Positions 17,071 to 60,610 of a DNA stretch of 64,000 nt are shown one piece after another. Source of the stretch: Pseudomonas sp. KBW05 (lineage in GTDB: Bacteria > Pseudomonadota > Gammaproteobacteria > Pseudomonadales > Pseudomonadaceae); the NCBI RefSeq assembly GCF_003852405.1, contig NZ_QAJM01000020.1, forward strand, positions 105,480 through 169,479, written 5' to 3'. Below the pieces are notes generated by a model, which saw nothing but the letters and a program-made list of their open reading frames with translations, had not been told where the DNA came from and did no database searches. The translations under genes were made by a program, and so were the position numbers. Position 1 is the first letter of the stretch. Each line of letters opens with the position of its first letter.

Positions 17071-17144
17071 GGCCGAGTAGCAAAATGGTTATGCAGTGGA
17101 TTGCAAATCCACCTACGCCGGTTCGATTCCGACCTCGGCCTCCA
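17071..17144 (+). tRNA. tRNA-Cys (GCA)
   Basis: A 74-nt cloverleaf with acceptor arms GGCCGAG and CTCGGCC, discriminator T and encoded CCA. The anticodon loop TTGCAAA gives anticodon GCA, and GGTTCGATTCC is the T arm. Its 3' half is the attachment site of the prophage; the integrated element restored a complete gene. Confidence 0.97.
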
Positions 17145-17999: not shown

Positions 18000-19064
18000 T
18001 TACTTCGTGGGCTTTACGATCTCGCCAACTCTTCGGTAAACCTTCTTGGTCATCTCCTCTGTGGAGTGTCCTAGTAATCGGCTGGCATGTCCCAGCTCGA
18101 TCTCACTGGCAGCTTTCGGGCGGATGTCCTTGAACTGGAACTGGCGAATCAGTACGGCCAGGGCAGAGTCCCCATCGGCTCCGGCCTTAATGGCCGCGTT
18201 CTCGCGTGCTTCATCCCATCGATTGCGCAGCATCTGCTGACTCATCCGCAGGCCGGACGTGTTGGTGATGAGCCTCGATGTTTTGATGCCCTTGAGTGCA
18301 CGTCGCTCTTGGAGATCATCAATAAAGGCACTGAGCCCGGATTGCACGCCCTCATCCTCCAGCCGTAGGCGGAGTTTCTTCGAGGTCTTGCCTTGTTTGA
18401 CCATCAGGAAACCCGCGTTCAGGTCGGTGGTGGCGACCTTGAGTACGTCAGCGGGTCGCTGGCCAGTTAGATAGGCCAGGTCCATGGCGTCTTTGAGTTC
18501 CTGCGGCGCCTGATCATAGACGGCATTCCAAACGATCTCACCGGCGTAGTAGTCACGCGGGGTTTCTTTGTTGCGGCGCAGGCCGAAACACGGGTTTGCC
18601 TTGTCCGTCAGACCCCATTCCCGGGCGAACGTGAACATAGTTGATAGAAGCGCGATCTCTCGGTTGGCACGCACCTTGGCCTTCCTCGCGTCGCGGTATT
18701 GAGCAATGATCTGTGGTGTCATAGCGTCGAGTGGGGCGCCGCTGAACGCCTTTTTCAGCTGTCGGAGACCTTTCTGATAGTCGTCCTGAGTGCCCTTGGT
18801 CAGCTTGGGCATCACTTTCTTTTCGTACTCTTCGAACAGTCGGTCTATTAGGTGCGCAGGAGACGGCACTGCTTTGCGCTCCAGGCGCGCCCATTCAACT
18901 TTTGCGTCGTCAAGGTCACTGCCCAGGGGGATCTCTTTGCGTTTGCCTTCGGCGTCCCTGCCGTTGTAGTAGTACCCGATCCAGATTGTTCCGTTCTTTC
19001 GTTTCTGGCGGCGGCGGATCATGCGCGGGGGCAAATCCCGGTTTGCTGTAGATTTCTGGCGCAT
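18000..19064 (-). CDS. int: phage integrase (tyrosine recombinase)
   Basis: A 354-residue tyrosine recombinase that would catalyse integration at, and with a directionality factor excision from, the tRNA-Cys site. It has an N-terminal arm-binding domain (GTIWIGYYYNGRD), a SAM-like core domain, and the catalytic domain: Arg in YLTGQRPAD, FKDIRPKAASE (second Arg, with Lys where His is more usual), LLGHSTEEM, and Tyr in KKVYRR. Located at the attL end and reading leftward, as is normal. Confidence 0.93.
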   Translation of the reverse strand: MRQKSTANRDLPPRMIRRRQKRKNGTIWIGYYYNGRDAEGKRKEIPLGSDLDDAKVEWARLERKAVPSPAHLIDRLFEEYEKKVMPKLTKGTQDDYQKGLRQLKKAFSGAPLDAMTPQIIAQYRDARKAKVRANREIALLSTMFTFAREWGLTDKANPCFGLRRNKETPRDYYAGEIVWNAVYDQAPQELKDAMDLAYLTGQRPADVLKVATTDLNAGFLMVKQGKTSKKLRLRLEDEGVQSGLSAFIDDLQERRALKGIKTSRLITNTSGLRMSQQMLRNRWDEARENAAIKAGADGDSALAVLIRQFQFKDIRPKAASEIELGHASRLLGHSTEEMTKKVYRRVGEIVKPTK

Positions 19065-52892: not shown

Positions 52893-53238
52893 GTGGCAAT
52901 TTCCGCGCCAGTAAAAGCCGCTGATTCTCCCTGAACAGTTCGTCACGTTGCTGGGCTACGGCCATTAAGCCGTTTATCCGACGATCCATTTCTGAGGTTT
53001 CGCGGTTGAGTGCACCCACTTCGGCCAGTGCTTTCTTCAGCGATTCCTCGGCGAGAGCTTTCTCGGTGGACAGCGCATCATTCATCTGCACCAGCCCGGC
53101 GATGTTCTTCCGGGCATTGCGCAGCAGCGCCTGGGTTTGGGTTAGTTCGTCCTCGAGCAGCGCGCACTGGTGCTTGTACATTTCCAGAGGTGTGGGGCAG
53201 CCAAGCCACGCTGAGGTGTCTTCGTCAATGAGGTGCAT
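52876..53238 (-). CDS. SOS-boxed coiled-coil protein
   Basis: A 120-residue protein from ATG 53238 (an in-frame TTG at 53253 is possible). The first 20 residues (HLIDEDTSAWLGCPTPLEMY) precede an almost continuous coiled coil (LLEDELTQTQALLRNARKNIAGLVQMNDAL and onward). I recognise no family. A LexA box lies 19 bp upstream. It is antisense to the late operon and its end overlaps the Rz1-like gene, so it is expressed independently of the late genes. Confidence 0.65.
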   Translation of the reverse strand: MHLIDEDTSAWLGCPTPLEMYKHQCALLEDELTQTQALLRNARKNIAGLVQMNDALSTEKALAEESLKKALAEVGALNRETSEMDRRINGLMAVAQQRDELFRENQRLLLARKLPLTGTP

Positions 53239-53256
53239 GGTGGGTAAACTCAAGTA

Positions 53257-53272
53257 CTGTATGTGCGTACAG
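53257..53272. promoter_or_regulatory. LexA/SOS box
   Basis: CTGTATGTGCGTACAG fits CTG-N10-CAG with near-perfect symmetry and resembles the box at 25527-25542. The region 53273-53497 contains no gene; it probably carries the promoter of the acyltransferase gene. Confidence 0.75.
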
Positions 53273-53497
53273 TAGTCGAGGTTTGGCCGTAGCGCGATTT
53301 GAGGCGACGAGCTGTAGCAGATTTGGTTTGGTGTTCGGTCGGCAGAGCGCCGGGGGGAGGGAGTAAATAATATTCGCAGCTACATGTTCCCTGAATAGCC
53401 GGGCCATCAACGGTGGCGAGTTGCCGCTATCCATTTAAGCTATCATCCTTCCCGCCGATACACATCCGGTAAATAATAAAGCGTCCATGGAGTGCGT

Positions 53498-54583
53498 ATG
53501 TCGCGGGAAAGAGTTGAAACCATTGATTACCTACGCGGCATTCTTTCCGTGTCGATCATGTTTTATCACTACATGGGGTGGCTGTTCCCCAACCAGATGG
53601 CCGAAGACAGCTTGCTCAGCAAGGTTGGTTACTACGGTGTCTCGGCTTTTTTTGTCATCAGCGGCATGAGCATGTGTATTGCCTACAACGGCAGGCTCTC
53701 AACTCCGGGTGACGTGAACCAGTATGTGATCAGGCGCGCTCTTCGCATTGTCCCGCTGTACATGCTCGCCTCAGTTGCGGCGTTGGCAGCAGCAGGGATG
53801 GCAAGCAAGACTCAGGGCGCCATCGATGTTTATGGCTGGTCGTCGGTCGTCCTGAACTTCACGTTGCTGTTTTCCTTTATTGATCCGAGTAAGGCCATAC
53901 CAGGTGGTGGCTGGTCCATCGGCAATGAGCTGTTCTTCTATTGCTACTTCCCGATCATGCTGTACCTGATTCGTCTGCATCGCGCCTATGCGGCGGCGAT
54001 TCTGCTGGTGTCGGCGGGGATGTTCATCTATTGGGCCATGGTCTTGGTGCCATCAGCCGGTGAGGCGCAGGCCTGGAAAGAGTACGTAAGCAACCAGAAT
54101 CAGGCGTTGTTCTTCGTGTGCGGCGTGCTGATTGCCTACGCTGGCGGTCGCCACAAGCTGGGCAATCTTGCCTCGATTACGTTGGGCGTGTTGGCGTTTA
54201 CGGCCTTTTGGGCTGTGAGTGTTGAAGTCAGCACCGCACTGGTGGTGGGCTGGGAGCGGATCGCGCTGGGAATCTGCACCATCGCGTTTGTCTCGAGCGT
54301 CTATTTTGTGAAGGTGAAGCTGCCCATCGCTATCGCCTGGGTTCTGCATACGGTTGGCGCGCTCTCGTTCTCGATCTATCTGCTGCATCCGCTGGTCTTT
54401 TCGGTCGTGCGCAAGGTCGGTTCGATCCTGGGCCTTGCGCCTGAGCTGATTATTGCCGCGTCGGTTGCTGGCACTTTGGTTGGGGCTTATGTGGTGTACC
54501 ACTGGTTTGAATTGCCGATCATGCGTCTGGGCAAGAAGCCAAAGCCGCAGGCGCCGATCAGCGCTGAGCTGGTGCAGAGATAG
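53498..54583 (+). CDS. OafA-type membrane acyltransferase (serotype-conversion cargo)
   Basis: A 361-residue integral membrane protein of the acyltransferase-3 family, with about ten membrane helices. It starts with the family signature ETIDYLRGILSVSIMFYHYMGWLF and contains WSIGNELFFYCYFPIM, the conserved WSLxxE-type motif. ATG 53498 follows GGAG. These enzymes O-acylate LPS O-antigen or other envelope sugars. Between the lysis genes and attR, with its own promoter region, it fits lysogenic conversion that changes a phage receptor. The modified sugar is unknown. Confidence 0.85.
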   Translation: MSRERVETIDYLRGILSVSIMFYHYMGWLFPNQMAEDSLLSKVGYYGVSAFFVISGMSMCIAYNGRLSTPGDVNQYVIRRALRIVPLYMLASVAALAAAGMASKTQGAIDVYGWSSVVLNFTLLFSFIDPSKAIPGGGWSIGNELFFYCYFPIMLYLIRLHRAYAAAILLVSAGMFIYWAMVLVPSAGEAQAWKEYVSNQNQALFFVCGVLIAYAGGRHKLGNLASITLGVLAFTAFWAVSVEVSTALVVGWERIALGICTIAFVSSVYFVKVKLPIAIAWVLHTVGALSFSIYLLHPLVFSVVRKVGSILGLAPELIIAASVAGTLVGAYVVYHWFELPIMRLGKKPKPQAPISAELVQR

Positions 54584-54739
54584 CGTCGGGAGGCGTTCGG
54601 CAGGAAGCCGGGGGATGGGGCAAATCAGTTCCGCAACTAGATTTCTACCCCTTGAAATCATTGACCCTAAGGGGCATTCAAAACCTCAAGGTGCGGAATT
54701 TATATTGGCATAAGGTGCTGATAAGTATAGAAAAAATCA

Positions 54740-54795
54740 TGGATTGCAAATCCACCTACGCCGGTTCGATTCCGACCTCGGCCTCCACTCTTAAA
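54740..54795 (+). other. attR core
   Basis: 56 bp identical to 17097-17152. It contains only the 3' part of tRNA-Cys; upstream is unrelated AT-rich sequence, so this is not a tRNA gene. The gap 54584-55124 otherwise holds integrase arm-like TTCCGCAAC (54629-54637) on the prophage side and no gene. Confidence 0.9.
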
Positions 54796-54797
54796 AA

Positions 54798-54828
54798 CCC
54801 CGTAGATTAACGTCTGCGGGGTTTTTTA
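54798..54828 (+). terminator. terminator hairpin beside attR
   Basis: CCCCGTAGA and GTCTGCGGGG followed by TTTTTT, a diverged copy of the tRNA-Cys terminator at 17154-17184. Confidence 0.75.
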
Positions 54829-55124
54829 TTGGCTGCAGGAAAGTGAGGTTTTCTGCAACTATCAGTTGTGTTCCGCAAGTGCGAGCGATGTGGCGGCACG
54901 TGATCAGAATGATGTCAGGGCGCAATCGGCCAGGGGTGGATATTCATTAGCGGCCAGAAACAGCCCTCGGATGTCGGCGAGTTTGGGCCCGTGTACCACG
55001 CGAGGTTCAGTTTTCAGTTGTGTCTCTCAAGCGCTTTCTTTACAAGCATTGATAGACGCAAGCTTTTCTTTTACGTGCCTTGAACTATGGTGAGTAGAAT
55101 TGTCAGCTCATCAGGGAGAAAGGT

Positions 55125-57599
55125 ATGCGAGCACCATTTGAGATGACCGACGGGATGGTGTCTCTGCGCAAGATATTAGAAAGCTACCCAGTTGGGAGTG
55201 AACATTGGAACGAGGCACAAAATCGGTTTCAGTTTGTTGACAGGTTGCTGACAGAGTGCTTGGGTTGGGAAAAGCCAGATATTGCTGTTGAGCTAACTGA
55301 TGAAATGAATGGGAGAGCGGATTACGCATTAGGCCTTCCCGTCAAGGCAATTCTAGAAGCAAAAAAAGAGGCGATTCTTTTTGACATACCTCCTTCTAGC
55401 TCAAATATTGTGCTTCGTAAGCTCCAACCTTTAATTGTCGCATCCAAAAGCTTTAAAGAAGCCATTATTCAAGTTATTCCCTATTGCGCAATGAGAGGCG
55501 CACAAGTCGCGATTGTTTGTAATGGTCCACAAATTGCAATTTTTCAAGCAGTCACTCCTGGATTTCCTCCGCTAGAAGGCGAGTGTTACTTTTTCAATGG
55601 TTTTCAATCGTACATTGAACATTTTCCACTTCTGTGGAAGTTTCTTTCACCTGAGGGGATTGAGGGGAACCATGCAAATCGAGACTTGGCTTTTCATCGA
55701 AACCCTAGGATACCTCCCAAAGGTTCCACGGTTATCGCTGAACCTTTAAAATATAGGTACCGGAATGACTTTCAAGAAAATTTAAGATCATTGTCATCGC
55801 TACTTTTGGAAGAGATCGAAGATAATCCCGAACTAAAATCAGACTTTTACAAAGAATGCTATATCGGCATTGAGGCTAATAACAGGCACCTTCTTTTAAG
55901 CAAAAGTATAATTTCCGCTCGTTACCGGCGAGCAGGTGAACTCGGCGTTGCACCCTCAGCTCTAGATGAAATTACGGGAGTTGATGGAAATGGCAATTTA
56001 CAGATCAGCGACCCTTCTCTGCTTGGAAAGATGGGCTCCCGTCCCATAGTAGTGATTGGAGATGTGGGCGTAGGAAAAACGTCTTTTTTTGAAAACTTAT
56101 TTGAAAGCCTCACTAGCACAGATCAGGCTAATACGTATTTCATAAATATTAATCTTGGCATAAAGGCAACTTTGAGTCGAGATATAAAAACATATATACT
56201 GGAAGAGGTTCCGAGAATACTAAAAAGCAAATATAGCATCGATATAAATACTGCTGCTTTTGCCAATGCGATATACCATAAGGACTTGGTGGATTTCGAC
56301 GCAACTGTAAATGGAAACCTAAAAGAATCAAATTCAGAACAGTATATCCTCGAGCGAGCAAGGTTCTTAACAATTAAAACAGATCAAAAGGATATGCATT
56401 TACAGGCCGCATTGGGTCACCTGAGTCGTGGTCGTAGCAAACAAATAATAATGGTGCTGGACAATGCAGATCAGCGCTCGTTCGAAGTGCAGCAAGAAAC
56501 ATTTCTTATTGCGCAAGAGTTTGCGGCATCTAGGAACTTGTCAGTTTTTGTAGCACTAAGGCCTAGTACATTTTATCTCTCAAAAACTACTGGAGCACTT
56601 TCTGCTTATCAAAACAAAGTCCTAACTATATCCCCTCCGCCTGCGGATGAGGTTATCCAGAAAAGGCTAATTTTTGCTGTCAGAGTGGCAGAGGGGAAGG
56701 TAGCTCCTGCCGCACTGCAGGACATCAGGCTAAACCTGAAAAATGTTGTGCTTTTCTTGAATGCCACTTTGCGCTCCATTAGAACAAGTGACTCTATTAA
56801 GCAGTTCTTGAGTAATGTGACGGGAGGTAATACGCGCTCGGTTATCGAATTAATTACCGGCTTTTTTGGAAGCCCCAATGTCGATTCTAAGAAAATAGTC
56901 AAGATCGAAGAGGAAAGGGGCGGGTACAGAATACCATTGCACGAATTTACGAAACATAGCTTGCTAGGTGAGTATGCCTACTTTAACTCCCAGTCGTCAT
57001 TAGTTGCTTGCAATATATTTGACGTTGTTGGCGCAGCTGACCCGCGAGAGCATTTTTTGTCTTCTCTAATTGTTGCCTACCTCAGCTCCAATACGGGCGT
57101 GGTCGACAATGATGGTTTTTTGGCTGGTAGAAATATAATTGCGGAGCTTACTGGTCATGGTTATGTAGATGATCAAATCAGTAGGGCTTTAAAGTTTTTG
57201 GCTATGAAGCGGTTAATTGAAACTCCGTACGCGCACTACCGCGAAATACAGGTTGCGGAGCATGAGCGCAGTGATCAGATGCATTATCGGGCGACATCAG
57301 TTGGAATTTATCATGTTCGTCACTGGGCAGGTTCGTTTGCATTTTTAGATGCCATGTCAACTGATACCCCAATCTTTGACGAGGCTGCAAGAGAAATAGT
57401 TTGTGGTCTTGCGTCTTCCTTTTCTATAAGTGACAGATATACAAAAACTGTTGCCTTTAGAGATTATTTAAAGGCGCAGTGGCTGTTATCTAGCATAAAT
57501 GTAAATTATTTTGATTTTATAAGTTTGCTCGGCGGCCAGGAGAACTCTTTTCTTACCGTCTCCAGTCACATTGTAAACCGACCTGCTCACCAAAGATGA
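55125..57599 (+). CDS. predicted PD-(D/E)XK nuclease - P-loop NTPase fusion, candidate defence gene
   Basis: An 824-residue AT-rich gene behind AGGGAGAAAGG. Residues about 35-145 resemble the N-terminal nuclease domain of type I restriction HsdR: FVDRLLTECLGW, GRADYALG (Asp66) and AILEAKK (Glu78, Lys80), then CNGPQIAIF. Residues about 305-490 form a P-loop NTPase: Walker A GDVGVGKTS (312-320), Walker B IIMVLDNAD (441-449) and a VALRPST strand. The C-terminal 300 residues look like helical/winged-helix repeats with no known domain. There is no helicase motif and no hsdM or hsdS, so it is not a type I subunit. Nuclease plus regulatory NTPase resembles Avs/STAND-type antiphage proteins in logic. 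Function is inferred. Confidence 0.7.
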   Translation: MRAPFEMTDGMVSLRKILESYPVGSEHWNEAQNRFQFVDRLLTECLGWEKPDIAVELTDEMNGRADYALGLPVKAILEAKKEAILFDIPPSSSNIVLRKLQPLIVASKSFKEAIIQVIPYCAMRGAQVAIVCNGPQIAIFQAVTPGFPPLEGECYFFNGFQSYIEHFPLLWKFLSPEGIEGNHANRDLAFHRNPRIPPKGSTVIAEPLKYRYRNDFQENLRSLSSLLLEEIEDNPELKSDFYKECYIGIEANNRHLLLSKSIISARYRRAGELGVAPSALDEITGVDGNGNLQISDPSLLGKMGSRPIVVIGDVGVGKTSFFENLFESLTSTDQANTYFININLGIKATLSRDIKTYILEEVPRILKSKYSIDINTAAFANAIYHKDLVDFDATVNGNLKESNSEQYILERARFLTIKTDQKDMHLQAALGHLSRGRSKQIIMVLDNADQRSFEVQQETFLIAQEFAASRNLSVFVALRPSTFYLSKTTGALSAYQNKVLTISPPPADEVIQKRLIFAVRVAEGKVAPAALQDIRLNLKNVVLFLNATLRSIRTSDSIKQFLSNVTGGNTRSVIELITGFFGSPNVDSKKIVKIEEERGGYRIPLHEFTKHSLLGEYAYFNSQSSLVACNIFDVVGAADPREHFLSSLIVAYLSSNTGVVDNDGFLAGRNIIAELTGHGYVDDQISRALKFLAMKRLIETPYAHYREIQVAEHERSDQMHYRATSVGIYHVRHWAGSFAFLDAMSTDTPIFDEAAREIVCGLASSFSISDRYTKTVAFRDYLKAQWLLSSINVNYFDFISLLGGQENSFLTVSSHIVNRPAHQR

Positions 57600-57863
57600 G
57601 TTTCAGTTATGGGGTCGATTCCTTGGGGAGCAATTTCGGTAAAGCTGCTATTAGCCAATAGTTGCCTGTTGTGTCGAGGGTCGGCTCAAGGCATAGGTGA
57701 AACTAAGGCGGCGATATTAGCCAGCCAAGATTGAAGAAAAAATCATTTCCTCAATGATAAATCAATGTCGTGTGAATAAAGGTTTTCAGCCGTCTTGATA
57801 CATCATAAATACGGAAGGTTATTTATCTTAACTAACTGGGTTGCAGGGTTTTATTCTTAGATC

Positions 57864-57950
57864 GCAACTCCAGCTACACCGCTTCGATTCCAACCTCGGC
57901 CCCATTCTTGAAAACCCCGTAGACCAACGTCTGTGGGGCTTTTTTATTGC
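57864..57950 (+). other. decayed third copy of the tRNA-Cys 3' end and terminator
   Basis: GCAACTCCAGCTACACC, TTCGATTCCAACCTCGGCC, then CTTGAAAACCCCGTAGACC and a hairpin with TTTTTT. It aligns with 17103-17190 with about one mismatch per seven bases and a 1-bp gap. It marks the outer end of the island. In 57600-57863 I see no gene. Confidence 0.75.
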
Positions 57951-57965
57951 CAAAAGACAAGTACC

Positions 57966-58490
57966 TCACCGCGCCGTATACCCCACCCCAAGCTCCCACC
58001 GCGACTGCCAATGTTCCACATACCGCCGTGCTACCTCCGGCGCCCCCTTAATCACCAGCACATTCTCCGAATTCGCCGTCTCCGCAGACGTCGCATAATT
58101 GAATGACCCCGTTTGCACCGTGCTGCCATCAACAATGATCACCTTGTCATGCTGCAGGTGAAAGTGATCACTGGTACGCAGTTCCACGCCATTGCGGCTG
58201 ACAAAGTCCATAGCCGTGGTACTGGCCTTGCCAAGGTTGCGTTTCTTGTCGATGACCACACGCACCTTCACCCCACGCTTCTGCGCCTCGACCAACGCCC
58301 GTGTGATGTCGGGCGCTTGAAAGGCGTAGGCAAGCATCTGAATGCTGTGCCGCGCGCTGCCGATGGTCTCCAGGACCAACGTACGCGCCGAACCTTCTGG
58401 CGAGAAACCGACGGCAATGCTGGGTTCAGCCAGAGAGAGGGGCGATAAGCCGAGCAGGGCCCCCAAGGTGATGCTTCGAACGATCATCAT
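57966..58490 (-). CDS. secreted phospholipase D-family nuclease
   Basis: A 174-residue protein with a signal peptide (cleavage near SLAEP) and one HKD motif, HDKVIIVDGSTVQTGSFN (HxKx4D), plus MLAYAFQAPDITRALVEAQKRGVKVRVVID. This is the layout of the Nuc endonucleases (pKM101 Nuc), which dimerise to bring two HKD motifs together and degrade DNA in the periplasm. Phospholipid cleavage is the alternative. It reads toward the island. Confidence 0.8.
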   Translation of the reverse strand: MMIVRSITLGALLGLSPLSLAEPSIAVGFSPEGSARTLVLETIGSARHSIQMLAYAFQAPDITRALVEAQKRGVKVRVVIDKKRNLGKASTTAMDFVSRNGVELRTSDHFHLQHDKVIIVDGSTVQTGSFNYATSAETANSENVLVIKGAPEVARRYVEHWQSRWELGVGYTAR

Positions 58491-58653
58491 GTTTCAAACC
58501 CCGATAGCGCTGTGTGCAAACGCTTCGTTCGCAGCGCGTTGTAAGTTTAAAAATACAAAGCCTACCAACACGTTACACGATAGCCGTGACGCCGTCGGCT
58601 TTCGCTTGTCCTATCTCTCGCGAAACAAATATTGCCAAGCAGAGAGTGTTTTC

Positions 58654-58821
58654 ATGAAGTTGAATTACCTGACCAAGGCGGCCGTCGTGGTCGCGCTGTT
58701 GTCCACCCTTTCGGGTTGCTGGATGTTCATGCCACCACCAGGTGGTGGTGGTGGTGGTGGTGGTGGGCACGGACAGGGCGGTGGCCACGGTGGTCCAGGC
58801 GGTGGCGGTGGCCAGCGCTAA
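58654..58821 (+). CDS. small glycine-rich lipoprotein
   Basis: A 55-residue lipoprotein: signal peptide with lipobox (LSTLSGC), then WMFMPPPG and a tail made almost only of Gly with His and Gln. A run of GGT codons (58742-58764) encodes nine Gly and could vary in length by slippage. Function unknown; membrane-anchored flexible tail. Followed by a strong terminator. Confidence 0.7.
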   Translation: MKLNYLTKAAVVVALLSTLSGCWMFMPPPGGGGGGGGGHGQGGGHGGPGGGGGQR

Positions 58822-58834
58822 GTAGTGCATCCAG

Positions 58835-58867
58835 GGAGCAAGCCGTTGCGGCTTGCTCCTTTTTTTT
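58835..58867 (+). terminator. terminator after the glycine-rich lipoprotein gene
   Basis: GGAGCAAGCCG-TTG-CGGCTTGCTCC followed by eight T. Confidence 0.95.
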
Positions 58868-58972
58868 GTGCGGCGAAAGTGTATTCCCCGATCCACCCCT
58901 AGCTGTACGGGGCGGTCGGCCCGCTAAACCTCTACTGTCACAGTCCTGCCACCACCGTCTGGATGCTGCGCC

Positions 58973-59581
58973 ATGTTCATGTCTACCAGCCTGCTGTCAG
59001 CCTTTGTGCTGTTCGCTTTCGTGTCTTCGATCACCCCGGGGCCTAACAACACCATGCTGCTGGCGTCGGGGGTGAACTTCGGGTTTCGTCGCTCGATGCC
59101 TCATGCGCTGGGGATCAGCATCGGTTTCATGCTGTTGGTGATTGCGGTCGGCCTGGGGTTGGGCGAGGTGTTCAAGGTGTTCCCGTGGGCCTACACGCTG
59201 TTGCGTTATGTGGGCGCGGCGTACCTGCTGTACCTGGCGTGGAAGATTGCGACGTCCGCCGGTATGTCCGAGAGCAGCGATGCGCACGGCAAGCCGATGA
59301 CGTTCCTCGGCGCGGCGGCGTTTCAGTGGGTCAACCCCAAGGCGTGGATCATGGCGCTGGGGGCAATCACTACCTATACGCCGGCCGAGGGTTATGTCAC
59401 CAACGTGCTGGTGATCGCCTTGGTGTTTGCCGTGGTCAACCTGCCCAGCGTGTGTGTCTGGGTGGTCTGTGGCAGCGGCCTGCGCAATGTGTTGCGCGAG
59501 CCGCGCTGGTTGCGGGTGTTCAACGGGTCAATGGCGGGCTTGTTGGTGCTGTCGTTGTACCCGATGTTGTTTGTCAGCTGA
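58973..59581 (+). CDS. LysE/RhtB-family amino-acid exporter
   Basis: A 202-residue inner-membrane translocator with about six helices. The N-terminal SAFVLFAFVSSITPGPNNTMLLASG is the LysE family signature, followed by GISIGFMLLVIAVGLGLG, LLRYVGAAYLLYLAWKI and QWVNPKAWIMALG. It exports amino acids or related metabolites; substrate not predictable. Confidence 0.9.
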   Translation: MFMSTSLLSAFVLFAFVSSITPGPNNTMLLASGVNFGFRRSMPHALGISIGFMLLVIAVGLGLGEVFKVFPWAYTLLRYVGAAYLLYLAWKIATSAGMSESSDAHGKPMTFLGAAAFQWVNPKAWIMALGAITTYTPAEGYVTNVLVIALVFAVVNLPSVCVWVVCGSGLRNVLREPRWLRVFNGSMAGLLVLSLYPMLFVS

Positions 59582-59586
59582 CGGCG

Positions 59587-59670
59587 TTACACCGGCGAGA
59601 TGGTCGCCAGCAGGCCGATGCCGATGGTCAGCACTAAAAAGCCGAACAGGAAAATTGCCATCTTGGTCAT
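59587..59670 (-). CDS. 27-residue membrane peptide
   Basis: A very short gene: MTKMAIFLFGFLVLTIGIGL and ATISPV, essentially one membrane helix. An optimal GGAGG lies 4 bp before the ATG. It is convergent with the lysE-like gene, whose stop lies 6 bp away. I recall no named family. The ribosome site and the clean hydrophobic helix support it. Confidence 0.55.
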   Translation of the reverse strand: MTKMAIFLFGFLVLTIGIGLLATISPV

Positions 59671-59941
59671 AAGGCCTCCGAAGGGAAGGGGGCGCCAGGA
59701 AGTGTCCTGGTGCACTCGACAAGGGTGTCGGGAGTGGGCGTATTGTCCGCCCGGGGCAGTTTTCGATACAGAGGCAGATGATAAAGAAAAAACCGTATCA
59801 GATGCGCGTTCAGGCGCCTGGCTTCGGCCTGTGCAGGGTGGCGGTTTTTTCAAGCTCAGCCCACATCCCGGTGTTTATGCGCCCGCCAACCTGTAATCTT
59901 TACGCTTGATAGTGACCGTTACCGTGCCCGTGCGAGGATGT

Positions 59942-60610
59942 ATGCGACGTCTGTTGAGCAAATACCGTTACGCCATTATTTTCTGGCTGTGCTTCGGCAT
60001 CTTCCGCACCTCCCTGGCCGATTGGAACCCCATCCCCTCTGGCTCCATGCGCCCGACGCTGGTGGAGGGCGATGTGGTGCTGGTCAATCGCGTCGCCTAC
60101 GACCTCAAGCTGCCGCTGACCGACATCTCGGTATTCGCGCTGGAAAACCCGCAACGGGGCGACGTGGTTACCTTTACCTCGCCCAAAGACAGCCTGCGCC
60201 TGATCAAGCGCATCGTCGGCATCCCTGGCGACACCCTGCAAATGAAAAACGAGGTGCTGTGGATCAACGGCGTGCCCGCCACTTACCTCGATGCGCAGGC
60301 CATCAGCGAGCGCGTCTCGCCTGATCAATCCATCGCCGGGATCAAGCTGACCGAGCTGGCGAACAACAGTCGGCGCAGCGTCCAGTTCATGCCGCAGGTG
60401 CGCGCGCGCAGGGACTTCGGCCCAGTAGTGGTGCCCGCCGACAGCTACTTCATGCTCGGCGACAACCGTGACAACAGCGCCGATTCGCGCTACATCGGCT
60501 TCGTACCGCGCCGTTTGCTGATCGGCCGCGCGCACCATATCCTGGCGTCCGCGCAGATCCTCGATCGTTGGATGCCGCGATTTCGCCGATTTGGTGCGCC
60601 AATCCTCTAA
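59942..60610 (+). CDS. signal peptidase I (short form)
   Basis: A 222-residue type I signal peptidase. One N-terminal membrane helix, then PSGSMRPTL with the catalytic Ser, RLIKRIVGIPGD with the catalytic Lys, and GDNRDNSADSRYIGFVP. It cleaves signal peptides on the outer face of the inner membrane. The main Pseudomonas LepB is near 284 residues with two helices, so this looks like a second, shorter enzyme. ATG 59942 has a GAGG site. No operon partner visible. In 59671-59941 I see no other gene. Confidence 0.9.
   Translation: MRRLLSKYRYAIIFWLCFGIFRTSLADWNPIPSGSMRPTLVEGDVVLVNRVAYDLKLPLTDISVFALENPQRGDVVTFTSPKDSLRLIKRIVGIPGDTLQMKNEVLWINGVPATYLDAQAISERVSPDQSIAGIKLTELANNSRRSVQFMPQVRARRDFGPVVVPADSYFMLGDNRDNSADSRYIGFVPRRLLIGRAHHILASAQILDRWMPRFRRFGAPIL

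Follow-up and report, generated by a model that had tools for sequence, protein, structure and literature searches.

What does an intact, AT-rich gene do when it stands alone between two copies of a phage attachment (att) sequence? The question is raised by a 64,000-nucleotide stretch of Pseudomonas sp. KBW05 (contig NZ_QAJM01000020.1, positions 105,480–169,479; hereafter the window), in which an uninterrupted frame of 824 codons at 55125–57599 follows a prophage at a tRNA-Cys gene. We consider it fairly likely that the product is a DNA nuclease that works as a single protein under the control of ATP and travels on mobile elements, being triggered by infection and blocking competing phages or plasmids; the gene is probably an undescribed phage-defence gene. 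This answer draws on the predicted nuclease and AAA+ folds, the intact motifs of both, purifying selection, the lack of a partner gene in the window and the mobile setting, all obtained from structure prediction or sequence.

The predicted nuclease and ATPase domains

Structure prediction and fold comparison place the N-terminal domain within the PD-(D/E)XK nuclease group to which the preliminary description of this DNA had assigned it, with HsdR-like and type IIG-like resemblance. The D, ExK and QxxxY residues of the HsdR-type domain are all present, and D66, E78 and K80 occupy the places given earlier, as do the Walker A (GDVGVGKT, 312–319) and Walker B (IIMVLDNAD, 441–449) motifs. Across 32 relatives, every sequence keeps E30, D66, E78, K80, Y120, G312, G315, G317, K318, D446, N447, D449, R514 and R571, while Q116 is kept in 29. 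These 32 are the sequences distinct at 90% identity out of 63 long copies (several being the same gene twice); they include some rows that built the profile and exclude copies lacking a complete 700-residue frame, among them L026, L035, L039, L066 and L073. The proposed nuclease–NTPase fusion is supported both by fold and by residues kept in all 32 relatives. Between the copy of P. composti and that of P. huaxiensis, nonsynonymous divergence (dN) is 0.029 and synonymous divergence (dS) 0.529, which argues that the gene is under purifying selection; a decayed gene is rejected on this ratio and on the invariant residues.

The profile matches the HsdR structure 3h1t at a whole-sequence expectation value (E) of 2.3e-4, with the best single domain reaching only 0.15. 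Against a viral fold library, the full model matches mostly replication factor C-type and other AAA proteins, with a type I HsdR N-terminal protein ranking sixth (E 4.0e-4); template modelling (TM) scores in this comparison are low, at 0.14–0.23 by query length for the eight matches with E below 0.001. The likeness to HsdR of type I systems (3h1t, EcoR124I) lies in the PD-(D/E)XK domain with its D, ExK and QxxxY residues. HsdR carries a helicase motor, whereas the window protein carries an AAA+ module, and neither Pfam nor NCBIfam lists a helicase family for it at E up to 1. Neither hsdM nor hsdS is found among the neighbours of the gene, in agreement with the preliminary description, and the window's own assembly yields no HSDR_N match; a type I restriction subunit is rejected on these grounds. 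The type IIG enzymes BpuSI, DrdV and BsaXI differ in that no methyltransferase domain is found in the window protein by Pfam or NCBIfam.

The best structural matches of the NTPase region are ORC/Cdc6-type AAA+ proteins, and the AAA+ core fold is present; TnsC, MuB, RdrA and BrxC also appear among the matches. Compared with PDB sequences, the NTPase profile brings up P-loop proteins of a generic kind, and Cdc6 chains reach no better than E 0.013–0.015. The window protein itself yields generic ATPase matches below the Pfam cut-offs, with none outside the ATPase, and two P-loop matches at chance level in NCBIfam. As first stated, the comparison with STAND proteins of the Avs type is not supported, ORC/Cdc6 being ahead by fold; the relatives provide weak Pfam hints of STAND, KAP and AAA_22 and weak nSTAND matches in a minority of sequences. 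Beyond the core, where a winged helix is possible, only a few ORC structural matches extend to residues 725–802, at a root-mean-square deviation of 7.9–9.4, and the C-terminal profile finds nothing among PDB sequences better than E 0.34. Two longer relatives, L009 (909 residues) and L067 (976 residues), possess an additional C-terminal part, which matches a cold-shock domain in L067 and contains an S1-like stretch, recognised by eye only, in L009.

The tRNA-Cys site and the spread of the family

The guanine-cytosine (GC) fraction of the three 1-kb blocks spanning 55001–58000 is 0.43, 0.42 and 0.44, against 0.55–0.59 in the flanking blocks (53001–55000 and 58001–60000). The picture of an AT-rich gene alone between attR and a decayed att copy is thus recovered in its coordinates, composition and repeats (Table 1). 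Since the gene sits between two att repeats, we read it as cargo of an older insertion; membership of the present prophage is unlikely, because attR separates the two. The third repeat is read as the displaced original 3' end of the tRNA, because an empty site is seen in a relative: in genome G067 (locus L081), the left flank and tRNA-Cys are followed within about 0.65 kb by a match to window 58537–58802. In G040 (L085), an empty site is indicated only by a 46-bp match at the locus end, and in G017 (L055) some 18 kb of other genes occupy the tRNA-Cys site, with an att copy in the middle. Efflux-pump and metabolic genes are among the contents of this last insert, judged by eye. Duplication of the tRNA-Cys end is common: among 120 genomes sampled from the genus, at least 25, counting that of the window, carry an extra match confined to the tRNA 3' end, by a hand count whose matches were not each confirmed as att sites.

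Table 1. Positions of the gene, its predicted domains and motifs, and associated features (window coordinates unless a locus is named).
Feature	Position	Strand	Remark
ORF encoding HsdR-type nuclease and ORC/Cdc6-like AAA+ protein (predicted)	55125..57599	+	824 aa, ATG start
PD-(D/E)XK nuclease domain (predicted)	55125..55700	+	about residues 1-192
D66, catalytic-type Asp	55320..55322	+	kept in 32/32 relatives
E78-A79-K80, ExK motif	55356..55364	+	E and K kept in 32/32 relatives
Q116xxxY120 motif	55470..55484	+	aligns with HsdR 3h1t; Q in 29/32, Y in 32/32 relatives
AAA+ ATPase region (predicted)	56013..57014	+	about residues 297-630
Walker A GDVGVGKT	56058..56081	+	residues 312-319; G312, G315, G317, K318 in 32/32
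Walker B IIMVLDNAD	56445..56471	+	residues 441-449; D446, N447, D449 in 32/32
C-terminal helical region, possibly with winged helix	57042..57596	+	about residues 640-824; AlphaFold2 (AF2) secondary structure
tRNA-Cys, integration target	17071..17144	+	
Tyrosine integrase of neighbouring prophage	18000..19064	-	adjoins tRNA; PF00589, E 8e-10
attR of prophage (tRNA 3' end and terminator)	54740..54836	+	92.9% over 98 columns
Third, decayed att copy	57860..57951	+	83% over 94 columns to tRNA 3' end and terminator
Small upstream gene of one branch	L027:5450-5947; L034:4646-5131		counterpart upstream of member in L134

The window protein is a member of PHROG 14719 (E 2.7e-71, residues 14–783 of 824 aligned to profile positions 11–782 of 833), a phage protein family annotated as of unknown function, from which no difference was found; all 14 aligned family sequences, the window's included, match it. 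The closest relatives are in P. composti (70%) and P. huaxiensis (69%). Within the genus, 11 of 299 sampled genomes carry a relative, the window's own included. At the level of the phylum, a profile finds it in 5 of 398 sampled genomes, again counting its own, one of which matches only part of the ATPase. Plasmid records, 72,556 in all, include 24 with a relative; in 7 the match spans 80% or more of the query, and 12 are typed as conjugative. Two scans of IMG/VR gave 20 and 16 loci, largely on shared contigs. Among 5,426 E. coli genomes, the DNA of one relative detects 10, of which 8 match along 80% or more of its length, and that of a second detects 11, of which 7 (all distinct from the 8) reach the same coverage. 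A large phage-like element also carries the family, the member in L031 lying on a 121-kb viral contig within a 13.8-kb stretch containing 21 predicted tRNA genes. Members are annotated as hypothetical, as 'P-loop NTPase fold' or as type IV restriction, one bearing the name 'Predicted type IV restriction endonuclease'. Among individual copies, insertion sequence IS1 interrupts the relative in E. coli H7 (L073), those in L035 and L039 are each split into two frames, that in Vibrio casei adjoins an IS3 element, and that in L075 has one counted stop, perhaps merely its last codon.

The neighbouring prophage occupies window 17145–54739, between tRNA-Cys and attR. Seven of its genes were scanned: beside a tyrosine integrase and an acyltransferase, they encode a primase-type Prim-Pol/DUF5906 protein, a terminase, a portal and, among contractile-tail components, a sheath and a minor tail protein. 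The acyltransferase gene (PF01757; 53492–54583), the last large one before attR, is possibly a surface-modifying lysogenic conversion gene. Directly outside the third att copy, a gene for a small PLD-like (PLDc_2) protein runs on the minus strand at 57966–58490, partly matching genome G011 of the genus at 72% DNA identity. A promoter scan, with 7 found against 6.0 expected, carries no information.

Neighbours of family members

Neighbourhoods were compared across 42 stretches, some of them near-copies, using a longest-frame rule; L026 yielded no member, leaving 41 with a recognised one. No methyltransferase adjoins the window gene, and several distant neighbours recur among the loci. No recurring direct partner is found in the window or in most of the 41 stretches; a single branch (L027, also L130; L034, also L131; and L134) departs from this, with a small same-strand gene of about 160 codons upstream of the member, ending 32–35 bp before it in L027 and L034. 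Its versions share 34–41% identity among the three loci, and no counterpart occurs in the window or in any other locus examined. The gene has no Pfam match at 0.01, and the two versions tested weakly match the C-terminal part of the PADLOC DarG antitoxin model (E 3.6e-5 and 4.9e-5). This small DarG-like product may be a brake on the nuclease, the sort of companion to be anticipated should the nuclease be capable of damaging the cell that carries it.

P2-type portal and/or terminase genes lie beside or near L020/L038 (one gene), L026, L028, L030 and L032, and the nearest large neighbour in L022, from the window's own clade, is a gpP-like terminase. The gpA–gpQ interval of P2-like phages has been described as a defence hotspot holding old, tin and others (Rousset et al. 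2022, PMC9122126); the settings found here were recognised from the portal/terminase side of that interval. In E. coli, one and the same DUF977 gene of Rac-type prophages is found close to the members of two lineages; in one of these the member runs opposite to its neighbours, in the other it does not. A phage integrase stands three frames off in L023, and a relative of that integrase adjoins the member in L024. On plasmids, the annotated gene preceding the member in L018 (Paracoccus) is Tmn (E 7.6e-78), the member in L019 (Shewanella) is followed by a DNA methylase gene and by one annotated as a restriction endonuclease, and one member in K. pneumoniae lies among phage-type genes on what is perhaps a phage-plasmid. 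The P2-type and Rac-type prophage settings, the methylase and restriction genes at L019 and the Tmn gene at L018 count in favour of a defence role. Ordinary settings occur too, with hrpA downstream in P. composti and metal-resistance and metabolic genes on plasmids.

A proposed switch, its rivals and its meaning

In the mechanism we favour, the ORC/Cdc6-type AAA+ module together with the C-terminal region would act as the sensor, whose trigger could be foreign DNA, an intermediate of replication or some phage protein. Upon this trigger, the AAA+ module would bind ATP and assemble into an oligomer or a DNA-bound filament, gathering the HsdR-type nuclease heads for DNA cutting. The target may be the DNA of the invader, or all DNA of the cell with loss of that cell. 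An ORC-type AAA+ module is suited to DNA binding and assembly; the antiphage effect, oligomerisation, trigger and target are what we infer from this arrangement. With no methyltransferase partner to mark self-DNA, the enzyme must either stay inactive until it is triggered or recognise something particular to foreign DNA.

Several observations weigh against a defence nuclease of this kind. The full-length AF2 model has a predicted TM-score of 0.61, and residues 250–304 fall below 50 in the predicted local distance difference test. A profile of 11 window-clade sequences, compared over the N-terminal region with the N-termini of 11 of 14 HSDR_N loci (L118, L120 and L121 excluded), gives a non-significant match to type I HsdR (probability 0.7%); the same comparison did align the QxxxY motif, and a C-terminal control, at 2.7%, scored no worse. 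No member is found in 50,697 phage records by tblastn with three different members, though PHROG contains the family, and some copies are interrupted or shortened, as expected of any dispensable gene. Of ten larger neighbours put through PADLOC, only one is recognised as a defence gene, a raw count and not an enrichment over background. Finally, no PADLOC family matches the window protein at E up to 1, a result that also bears on its distinctness: of the proposed separation from named defence families, the lack of a match stands within PADLOC, the one collection checked, while PHROG 14719 membership means that the protein is no orphan.

The absence of an adjoining methyltransferase would also suit modification-dependent (type IV) restriction, in which modified bases would be read by the C-terminal region, with the AAA+ module loading or moving on DNA and cutting left to the HsdR-type domain; infection sensing would then be unnecessary. 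The annotation of one relative as a type IV endonuclease and the HsdR-like and type IIG-like nuclease fold point the same way, and winged-helix fusion endonucleases sensing N6-methyladenine have been described (PMC11037411). Pfam on the window protein and the C-terminal profile against PDB sequences detect no known modified-base reader, although a novel one could escape both, and we regard this explanation as unlikely. A role in mobile-element maintenance (stability, replication or repair), with an ORC-like AAA+ ATPase and a nuclease processing replication ends, would accord with the rank of replication initiators as the best fold matches, transposition regulators appearing as well, and with the 24 plasmid records, some placing relatives near replication genes (L019, L067, L069). 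However, members occur in unlike element types; the rarity in E. coli (8 and 7 other genomes for the two versions at 80% length or more) is unlike a core gene of a prophage type; and one of the two E. coli lineages, unlike the other, is encoded opposite to its neighbours. Such a role seems improbable.

The rivals overlap in part, and a short form of an Avs-like STAND sensor, whose C-terminal region binds a phage protein directly and whose oligomerisation activates the nuclease, departs from the favoured defence reading only in its trigger. The window protein shares with Avs and other nuclease–STAND proteins a single chain, an N-terminal nuclease and a central P-loop NTPase, and Rousset et al. 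(PMC9122126) mention STAND proteins that combine C-terminal repeats with a BpuSI_N or Mrr nuclease. It differs in that its ATPase is nearest to ORC/Cdc6, it has no PADLOC match and no long C-terminal repeat region was noted; we rate this form, too, as rather improbable. Membership of Avs itself finds no support, as no named PADLOC model matches the protein, and a relation to STAND may exist. What endures of the antiphage system first proposed is the nuclease–NTPase fusion, the solitary place of the gene in an att-site island, the lack of a PADLOC match and the candidacy as a defence gene; the Avs comparison as stated does not.

Two of the structural matches, RdrA of RADAR and BrxC of BREX, belong to multi-protein systems, whereas the window protein has a fused nuclease and its gene no partner; no RdrB deaminase-type neighbour is seen in the window, and the RdrA model matches 2 of 14 relatives (best E 0.018). 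The PADLOC models DrmMI of DISARM (5 of 14 family sequences, best E 6.6e-7) and mad8 of MADS (9 of 14, best E 0.0044), neither of which matches the window protein, probably reflect shared domains.

Single-protein nuclease–NTPase defence is an already known kind. PADLOC, NCBIfam, Pfam and PHROG offer no functional name for an HsdR-type nuclease joined to an ORC/Cdc6-type ATPase, and a literature search of titles and abstract starts, with most subscription papers outside its coverage, found nothing on this architecture. The chief caveat on novelty is the DefenseFinder entry FS_HsdR_like, reportedly from Fillol-Salom et al. 2022 and, as its name suggests, a solitary HsdR-like gene of phage satellites, which we suppose, comparing by name alone, could be the PHROG 14719 family.

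We propose tentatively that the family represents an undescribed class of prokaryotic immunity, in which an ORC/Cdc6-type ATPase would sense infection and gate a fused HsdR-type nuclease, carried by prophages and plasmids at hotspots of competition, usually on its own but accompanied, in a single branch, by a small DarG-like protein. The switch resembles a replication-initiator ATPase that normally grips DNA, in contrast to the repeat-bearing STAND sensor of Avs. As a single gene, the system is cheap to test. If it is active, PHROG 14719, a phage protein family without a described function, would acquire one, and mobile elements would have turned an origin-recognition machine into a stand-alone immune nuclease.
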